Assembly: GCA_016177615.1 (NCBI GenBank)
Contig: JACOUX010000018.1
Location: forward strand, 1 to 47,510
DNA length: 47,510 nucleotides
Direction of reading: 5' to 3'
DNA from: Candidatus Woesearchaeota archaeon
GTDB lineage: Archaea; Nanobdellota; Nanobdellia; Woesearchaeales; GW2011-AR4
In this document: piece after piece, positions 10,471 to 12,694 of the stretch
Layout of the letters: each line of letters begins with the position of its first letter
Position numbering within the stretch: the stretch's first letter is position 1
Notes under the pieces: model-generated
The model's database searches: none
The model's input: only the letters and a program-made list of their open reading frames with translations
What the model was told of the DNA's origin: nothing
Translations under genes and position numbers: made by a program

Positions 10471-11370
10471 ATGAAGCATTCACTCAAAGTTACAATATCG
10501 CTTATTGTGCTTTTCCTGCTTGCCCAGGTTATAGGGCTGCTTGTTGTGAACCAGTACATTGACCATCAAAAAACTACTGAAACAAAAGAAATATCCTACA
10601 AGCCGTTGCCATATGACTTGGAAAGGCCCGAGATCAAAAACCAGTCTTATTCTTTTCTTTACCTTTCAGCAGCAATAATAACAGGCACACTTTTGATTTT
10701 AATCCTGATAAGGTTCAATAAAGTATTCATCTGGAAGTTTTGGTTTTTTGCTACAATATGGGTTACACTTTCGGTTGCTTTTGCAGCGTTCATAAGCAGC
10801 TTTGCAGCTGCTATGATTGCATTGGCTTTCTCGCTTTTAAGGCTATACAAGCCTAACTTTTTCGTGCAGAATGTTTCCGAAGTTTTTGTGTATGGGGGGT
10901 TAGCAGCGATATTTGTGCCAATGATGAACATGTTTGCAGCATTCGCGCTCCTTATAGTAATTTCGGTTTATGATTTTATTGCAGTGAACAAGACAAAGCA
11001 CATGATTAAGCTTGCAAATTTCCAGTCAAGCTCAAAGGTTTTTGCTGGGCTGCTTATAAATTACGGCAAAGAGAAGACGCAAAAGCAAAAGTACAGGCAA
11101 GATACAGGCGCAAAAAGCGAAAAGCGGGTTGCCGTCTTGGGGGGCGGAGACATCGGATTCACATTGCTTTTTGCAGGCGTTGTGATGCAGGAATTGATGC
11201 TGAAGGAAGCGGTAATATTCGGATTTCTTAAGACTCTTGTAATCCCACTTTTTGCCTCAATCGCTTTGCTAATGCTTCTTGTCAAGGGGAAGAAAGACAA
11301 GTTTTATCCTGCAATGCCTGCTTTAAGCGCAGCTTGCTTTTTGGGGTATTTAGTTGTATGGATAATTTAA
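10471..11370 (+). CDS. Presenilin/signal peptide peptidase-family intramembrane aspartyl protease
   Basis: Multi-TM; YDFIAV (YD motif) and GGGDIGFTLLFAGVV (GxGD-type motif). Confidence 0.85.
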   Translation: MKHSLKVTISLIVLFLLAQVIGLLVVNQYIDHQKTTETKEISYKPLPYDLERPEIKNQSYSFLYLSAAIITGTLLILILIRFNKVFIWKFWFFATIWVTLSVAFAAFISSFAAAMIALAFSLLRLYKPNFFVQNVSEVFVYGGLAAIFVPMMNMFAAFALLIVISVYDFIAVNKTKHMIKLANFQSSSKVFAGLLINYGKEKTQKQKYRQDTGAKSEKRVAVLGGGDIGFTLLFAGVVMQELMLKEAVIFGFLKTLVIPLFASIALLMLLVKGKKDKFYPAMPALSAACFLGYLVVWII

Positions 11371-11419
11371 AATTATTCTAACAGTTAAACTTTTAAAAGG
11401 CGTAATCATTCTGCATACT

Positions 11420-11709
11420 GGAGGACTTTTCCGGGAAGCCAGCACTCTCCTGTAAGCGCAAATGTGCTTAGGTGCGGAGAAGCATGGGAAGCAGCTTGGG
11501 CTTTTGCAACTTAGTCTTGCTTCTGGCGTCGAAGCTCTGCCCCATAGGACTTATGTTTTTGAAAATCCGTCAGGTCTGGAAGGAAATCAATAAAAAATTG
11601 ACCTAAGGCAGCGGTAATCTTAGGCATTGGTGCTTATGGATCACAGAGTGGAGCTGGAAGTGAGGTTGCTAATTGCAACTGCTTTTGCCCATTTTCAGGC
11701 GCGTCCTCC
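11420..11709 (+). ncRNA. ffs: Archaeal signal recognition particle (7S) RNA with apparent 22-nt insertion in helix 8
   Basis: Terminal helix GGAGGAC/GTCCTCC; Alu-domain TCCTGTAAGCGCAAATGTGCTTAGG; S-domain CCGTCAGGTCTGGAAGGAA...GCAGCGG; TGGATCACAGAG; upstream TTTTAAAA box. Confidence 0.9.
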
Positions 11710-11722
11710 TTTTTAATACAAA

Positions 11723-12694
11723 ATGAACCTAATTTATAATAAAATATTTTTAGAGCATAAATCTGAAGGCCATCCTGAAAGGCCGGAGAGGCTTCTTGCT
11801 TTTGGCAATATTGAAGAGTCTGAAATCGAGAATGGGGAGAGATACTTGAGCTTATTATATGGCAATAATTATATTGAATTAATTAAAAACTCTTCTGCAA
11901 AAGAGATGAATCTGGATGCGGACACTTATACAAACTCAAAGAGCTATGATGTTGCCTGCTATGCAGTCGGTGCAGCAATAAAAGCCGCAAGGCAGAATGA
12001 TTTTGCGTTAGTAAGGCCGCCAGGGCATCATGCAACTGCAAAGAAAGCAATGGGTTTCTGCCTGTTCAACAATGTTGCAGTTGCATGCAAGTGGCTGAAT
12101 GAGAGAGGGAAGAAAGTTTTGGTAATAGATTTTGACGGCCATCATGGAAACGGGACGCAGGATATTTTCTATAATACAGACAAAGTGCTTTACTTATCAA
12201 CGCATCAGCTTCCAGCATTTCCTGGAACCGGTTGGATTAATGAAATAGGCGAGGGAAAGGGGAAATATTTCACAATAAACATTCCAATGCCGCCTTATTC
12301 TTCTGATGACATTTTTATAGATATGTTATCGAGAATAATTCCTGTAATAAAAGAGCAATACAAGCCTGATGTTGTCGCTGTTTCAGCGGGATTTGATGCA
12401 CACAAAGGGGATCCCTTGCTTCAGCTTAATCTAACAATTAATTCATATTATGAAATCGGCAGGCTCCTATCAAATAATTTTAATAATATATTTGCCTGTC
12501 TGGAAGGTGGTTATAATGTTGAAGCGCTTCCTCATTGCGTTTCTGTATTCCTCATGGGCATAAATAAGGAAAAATCAATGCTCGAGTTCAAGGAGCAGAG
12601 AACAACTTCAGCGGCGAATGTGCAGAGAGAATTTGAAGCGAGGATGAAAAGCCTAAAACTTGAGCTGTTCGAGTATTGGAATTTTGGAATCTAG
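11723..12694 (+). CDS. Histone deacetylase-superfamily protein (HDAC/AcuC/Aph-like)
   Basis: RPPGHHATAKKAMGFCLFNNVAVA, DFDGHHGNGTQDIF, SAGFDAHKGDPL, LEGGYN motifs. Confidence 0.92.
   Translation: MNLIYNKIFLEHKSEGHPERPERLLAFGNIEESEIENGERYLSLLYGNNYIELIKNSSAKEMNLDADTYTNSKSYDVACYAVGAAIKAARQNDFALVRPPGHHATAKKAMGFCLFNNVAVACKWLNERGKKVLVIDFDGHHGNGTQDIFYNTDKVLYLSTHQLPAFPGTGWINEIGEGKGKYFTINIPMPPYSSDDIFIDMLSRIIPVIKEQYKPDVVAVSAGFDAHKGDPLLQLNLTINSYYEIGRLLSNNFNNIFACLEGGYNVEALPHCVSVFLMGINKEKSMLEFKEQRTTSAANVQREFEARMKSLKLELFEYWNFGI

Follow-up and report, generated by a model that had tools for sequence, protein, structure and literature searches.

The SRP RNA gene in the 47,510-nt stretch of Candidatus Woesearchaeota DNA analysed here (the window) is interrupted within its SRP54-binding core by 22 nt that very probably represent a bulge-helix-bulge (BHB) intron of the SRP RNA precursor. 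EndA is predicted to cut out this segment, joining of the exons would then yield a canonical core, and like introns appear to be present in other lineages. For the Woesearchaeota SRP RNA inserts as a group, removal as BHB introns by the tRNA-splicing machinery is the most likely reading of the sequences compared.

The SRP RNA gene and its interrupted helix 8

The Rfam archaeal SRP family (Archaea_SRP, RF01857) matched positions 11419-11710 of the forward strand over model positions 1-317 of 317, with a score of 79.7 bits (E about 2e-18 to 3e-18). This value lies below the family's gathering score of 96.5, a shortfall in line with the presence of the 22-nt insert, and the window gave zero matches at the Rfam gathering threshold. 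No family besides SRP was matched within 11300-11800 at E values up to 1. A profile search of the window's assembly (G000, 1.54 Mb, estimated to be 99% complete, with the window on contig C61) identified the gene as its sole archaeal SRP RNA match. The complete match is colinear, with no 3' part encoded ahead of the 5' part. Downstream, on the same strand (11723-12694), a histone-deacetylase-like protein is encoded, with RPPGHHA and DFDGHHGNGTQ motifs recognized by eye. The features of the locus, all on the + strand, are listed below; here and throughout, ^ marks a junction, an insertion point or a predicted cut.

11392-11398, +, TATA-box-like TTTAAAA about 25 nt upstream of the RNA start, putative promoter element (read from the sequence)
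11419-11710, +, SRP RNA gene of archaeal type, precursor including the intron (RF01857 match)
11567-11585, +, 5' exon part of helix 8, CCGTCAGGTCTGGAAGGAA (sequence)
11580-11583, +, exon strand of the central helix, AAGG (BHB register, covariation)
11584-11586, +, 5' bulge AA^A, predicted cut after 11585 (BHB register, covariation)
11586-11607, +, candidate 22-nt BHB intron, ATCAATAAAAAATTGACCTAAG (sequence; absent in congeners G004, G005, G010 and G012)
11587-11591, +, 5' strand of the intron stem, TCAAT (5/5 pairs change on both sides among relatives)
11597-11601, +, 3' strand of the intron stem, ATTGA (covariation)
11602-11605, +, intron strand of the central helix, CCTA, with an outermost A.A mismatch in the window (BHB register, covariation)
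11606-11608, +, 3' bulge AG^G, predicted cut after 11607 (BHB register, covariation)
11608-11614, +, 3' exon part of helix 8, GCAGCGG (sequence)

The preliminary description had placed a 22-nt insertion at 11586-11607 in the SRP54-binding core, and the split of helix 8 is found exactly there, with the letters it quoted in agreement with the sequence. Its claim that removal of these 22 nt restores a canonical core is likewise borne out: deletion gives CCGUCAGGUCUGGAAGGAA^GCAGCGG, a core that agrees with those of uninterrupted congeners, and the spliced RNA adopts a canonical helix 8 in its predicted fold. At 22 nt, compared with several hundred nt for the catalytic core of group I and group II introns, the insert is not of the self-splicing type.

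While the boundaries proposed earlier are judged the best, the structure drawn around them does not stand. With a three-pair AGG/CCU helix and the bulges AAA and AAG, excision would leave a surplus nucleotide, which none of the intronless congeners sharing this stem has. When the register is read instead as four positions, AAGG/CCUA, the bulges become AA^A and AG^G, and the surplus G turns out to be a register artefact. Three of the four positions form standard pairs in the window, the outermost being A.A. The four-position register is backed by three more distant genomes (G251, G210 and G342), in which a central helix AATG/CATT with 4/4 pairs and the same bulges, AA^A and AG^G, gives the exact product, and by an outermost A-U pair in congener G014. 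In the predicted ensemble of the window precursor the central helix and the intron stem dominate, with probabilities of 0.87-0.99 for standard pairs. All 5 pairs of the inner stem covary, and the outer helix past the 3' bulge is weak or replaced by alternatives in predicted folds. No separate helices were assigned to two further pairings that had been suggested, AGGTC/GACCT and CCTAAG/CTTAGG.

These features can be combined in a minimal splicing model. The 3' part of the intron would pair with exon letters at the tip of helix 8, the intron hairpin would stack on top, and two 3-nt bulges would flank the four-position helix, as covariation suggests. EndA would cut each bulge after base 2, after which an RNA ligase, represented in congeners by RtcB, would seal the exons into a seamless canonical SRP54-binding core. 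Like introns at the same site or at GUC^AG would occur in other Woesearchaeota lineages, with clean loss in part of the genus.

Inserts at the same and neighboring sites in relatives

SRP RNA was obtained from 16 of the 20 genomes sampled from the window's genus, and 12 of the 16 (G000, G001, G002, G003, G006, G009, G011, G013, G014, G016, G017 and G019) carry an insert at the identical point. The alignment with close relatives that had been proposed as a check reveals no conserved length, the inserts of the genus ranging from 22 to 77 nt and the core being uninterrupted in the remaining four (G004, G005, G010 and G012; e.g. GGTCTGGAAAGAAGCAGCGG). No insert was found in most of the remaining genera of the family. 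This position, GGAANGAA^GCAGC (site 1), is also occupied in G251, G210 and G342, one genome from each of three other families. A second position in the same core, GUC^AG (site 2), holds inserts of 21-49 nt in 10 more genomes of the order: G025, from the window's family, and G151, G148, G301, G343, G104, G171, G169, G170 and G255. The insert of G025, CTGG-TC^A-CACGC..GCGTG-CCAG-AG^A, serves as an example. All four central positions pair in 9 of the 10 site-2 inserts, G.U counted, and one central pair in G170 is A.A. In G367, from another order of the class, site 1 is displaced by 1 nt (GGGAACAG^AGCAGCC) and the central helix has 4/4 pairs.

A single excision rule, in which two 3-nt bulges flank a central helix of four positions and each bulge is cut after its second base, restores the canonical core (GGAAGGAA^GCAGC or equivalent) in 26 of 26 genomes; three of these (G343, G255 and G367) were missed by a strict script, placed by eye and then scored. 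Insert lengths across all carriers are 21-77 nt. Long SRP matches were chosen by length within the order and part of the class and then read; the counts are lower bounds, since this selection did not extend to matches that were unlisted, truncated at contig ends or missing. A search of the named genomes for the exact site-1 pattern returned 10 Woesearchaeota; four matches elsewhere (L117, L120, L121 and L123) are chance matches in other sequence. The relatives thus lend strong support to the micro-intron reading first suggested for the window, at the level of sequence comparison.

Several individual loci are of separate note. Identical 22-nt SRP introns occur in G251 and G210 (L125 and L126), which belong to different families, and site-2 introns from three families (L024, L106 and L128) have a common core resembling GCGTCAGAAxCGGAGATTC. 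In a 98%-complete genome, the SRP RNA at L135 (G060:C24) looks broken or rearranged past the 5' domain and could be divergent, split or permuted. At L133 (G183:C80), near a contig end, a fuller copy of the SRP RNA gene is preceded by a tandem repeat of its 5' part.

Covariation was assessed on an alignment (A1) of 12 distinct site-1 sequences. The BHB structure paired 92.6% of cells, compared with 69.8% in shuffles, and 27 cells were changed on both sides, compared with 7.9 in shuffles; the sequences are related, and not all of these changes are independent. Support fell to near zero in slid-register controls. The exon-intron columns 16 and 38 vary in step, being A-U in seven sequences, U-A in three and G-C in two, a pattern that a free-standing hairpin would not need. 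The helix 8 tip stem UCU/GGA also pairs and covaries in A1, and there column 16 covaries with column 11. Column 16 is thus under two constraints, and the intron appears to track exon changes. Within the genus, a weak tree implies about three events for the A-to-G change. When insert letters were shuffled with the exons kept and slides allowed, the window gave p = 0.0002, and the 24 distinct inserts gave p values of 5e-5 to 0.017 each, 5e-5 being the floor of 20,000 shuffles. In this test, which was devised after the pattern had been noticed, splice points were set by core restoration and leftover slides settled by the BHB rule, and inserts within one genus are non-independent. A thermodynamic model gave a central-helix probability near zero for G019, G343, G104 and G170, and the BHB is not favored there.

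The same comparisons bear on the possibility that the mature RNA keeps the insert as an additional hairpin, an expansion loop of the kind known from basidiomycete helix 8. Such retention has a precedent in Cryptococcus, where the RNA of purified SRP still has its helix 8 loop insertion (PMC4605306); moreover, the intron hairpin would by itself covary likewise, and the helix 8 tip stem could still form alongside it. Against this stand three insertion points that all fall within a near-invariant core, exon-intron pairing in the BHB register with seamless excision 2 + 1 across each bulge, lengths that range from 21 to 77 nt, and four congeners in which the same core is present and the insert cleanly absent. 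Retention is therefore improbable, and much less likely than a BHB intron.

Splicing machinery and inserts in rtcB

A BHB intron would call on an endonuclease and a ligase. The window's assembly encodes an EndA of about 201 amino acids (C21:87735-87995, minus strand) with both the N- and C-terminal domains (PF01974 and PF02778). Its nearest PDB entry is the tRNA-splicing endonuclease 3iey, chain A, the partner chain being Nanoarchaeum NEQ261. EndA gave a single match in almost every genome searched, which is compatible with a homotetramer. A search for RtcB gave no match in the 99%-complete G000 assembly and a match in 15 of 19 congeners; its absence from G000 is most simply explained by an assembly gap. 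Several tRNA genes of G000 are interrupted by introns, for which automatic BHB scoring gave no clean picture and found four central pairs solely in tRNA-Leu. Two of these genes (L083 and L074) have oddly formed introns, perhaps more than one per gene or at unusual positions.

The presence of EndA without a detected RtcB in G000 could be taken to mean that the precursor is cut and the exons not plainly joined, to leave an SRP RNA in two pieces or in circular form. The SRP RNA of T. tenax is indeed matured by EndA and circularized from a permuted gene (PMC4731332). Here, however, the gene order is unpermuted and the RNA complete (positions 1-317), most congeners have RtcB, and the tRNA introns of G000 need a ligase as well, making this outcome very improbable. 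Lastly, although the gene comes from a metagenome assembly, is a single locus and scores under the Rfam gathering value, an assembly error, a decaying gene or a chance hairpin is scarcely credible, because homologous inserts with different but compensating stem letters occur in the assemblies of 11 congeners, which rejects a local assembly error, and the remainder of the RNA matches Rfam end to end.

BHB-type inserts are also found in the rtcB genes of the genus. In G003, G009, G001, G010 and G012 (L167, L168, L170, L173 and L174, respectively), an insert of 30-33 nt with the form GGGG-AT^T-..-CCCT-TG^A introduces an in-frame stop or a frame change, and its excision yields GHWGYGFPIGG or an equivalent. 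In G010 and G016 (L173 and L172), a further insert, TGAC-AT^T-..-GCGAA-GTCA-CG^T, precedes NCGMR and has 4/4 central pairs. The rtcB reading frame needs the insert to be removed, so that these genes point to BHB splicing being active in the genus on transcripts other than tRNA, as judged from sequence. The RNA ligase would then have to assist the splicing of its own mRNA. Other rtcB inserts were noted. In G006, G011 and G016 (L169, L178 and L172), a BHB-like insert read by eye splits GH^WGYG and has a G.A mismatch at its outermost position; further inserts of unassigned form occur in G001 and G006; and in G019 and G025 (L175 and L180) the NC of the active-site motif is the site of an in-frame insertion, roughly 1.5 kb long, that is probably an intein.

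Evolution and comparison with known systems

SRP RNA is, to our knowledge, universal, and the 5' CAGG and 3' AGCA strands of its helix 8 form the platform to which SRP54 binds. Sites 1 and 2 both split this platform; thus, SRP54 would not be expected to bind the unspliced RNA in the normal way. The most economical history for the window's genus has a single gain and some three clean losses, with four changes on the best tree. Among 80 SRP RNAs, the best tree calls for about eight changes at each site, of which well-supported branches force five or six; resolution in trees of the SRP exons is too poor to date the gains. Transfer between lineages is possible, given the identical introns of G251 and G210 and the shared site-2 core.

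A broader proposal, which we advance tentatively and regard as rather doubtful, is that tiny BHB introns have repeatedly targeted the SRP RNA of Woesearchaeota, being gained, relocated and lost with no homing gene involved, and that they always split the SRP54 core. Assembly of the secretion machine would then depend on RNA splicing, whose ligase gene has like introns in the genus. Inserts at a functional center recall the anticodon-loop introns of tRNA and bear on the preference of BHB introns for the most conserved spots, for which the removal of integration targets is one example of a possible reason. In practical terms, the inserts explain the sub-threshold Rfam scores of some SRP RNAs, and annotation pipelines may miss such genes.

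In the literature covered, which left most subscription papers and preprints outside, no report of an intron within an archaeal SRP RNA was found, such an intron having been postulated for an ancestor only. BHB introns are known in tRNA, rRNA and cbf5 mRNA (PMC2738675, PMC7714728), and SRP RNA would be a new host for this type of splicing. The present inserts resemble those introns in their four-position helix, their 3-nt bulges on opposite strands, the predicted cut after base 2, the occurrence of EndA in the genome and clean presence or absence among near relatives. They differ in host, in being very short and lacking a homing gene, and in that the outermost central pair is mostly A.A in the window's genus.

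Among SRP RNAs themselves, the closest comparison is with Thermoproteus, where the preliminary description had mentioned BHB processing of a permuted RNA. This is confirmed by Plagens et al. (2015, PMC4731332), in whose work the permuted SRP RNA is circularized and its BHB-containing precursor processed by the tRNA-splicing endonuclease. The two systems share a BHB in the SRP RNA precursor, predicted here from sequence; by contrast, the present gene is colinear, and its BHB lies within the SRP54-binding core around an internal segment. Plagens et al. considered an ancestor with a simple BHB intron plausible for permuted genes (PMC4731332), a postulate that becomes testable with the candidate simple BHB introns in the SRP RNA of a different lineage. 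The helix 8 loop insertions of basidiomycetes similarly add sequence to helix 8 of the SRP RNA. Their retention in purified mature SRP is evidence against an intron in that case (PMC4605306), whereas the Woesearchaeota inserts bear a BHB register together with exon-intron pairing.
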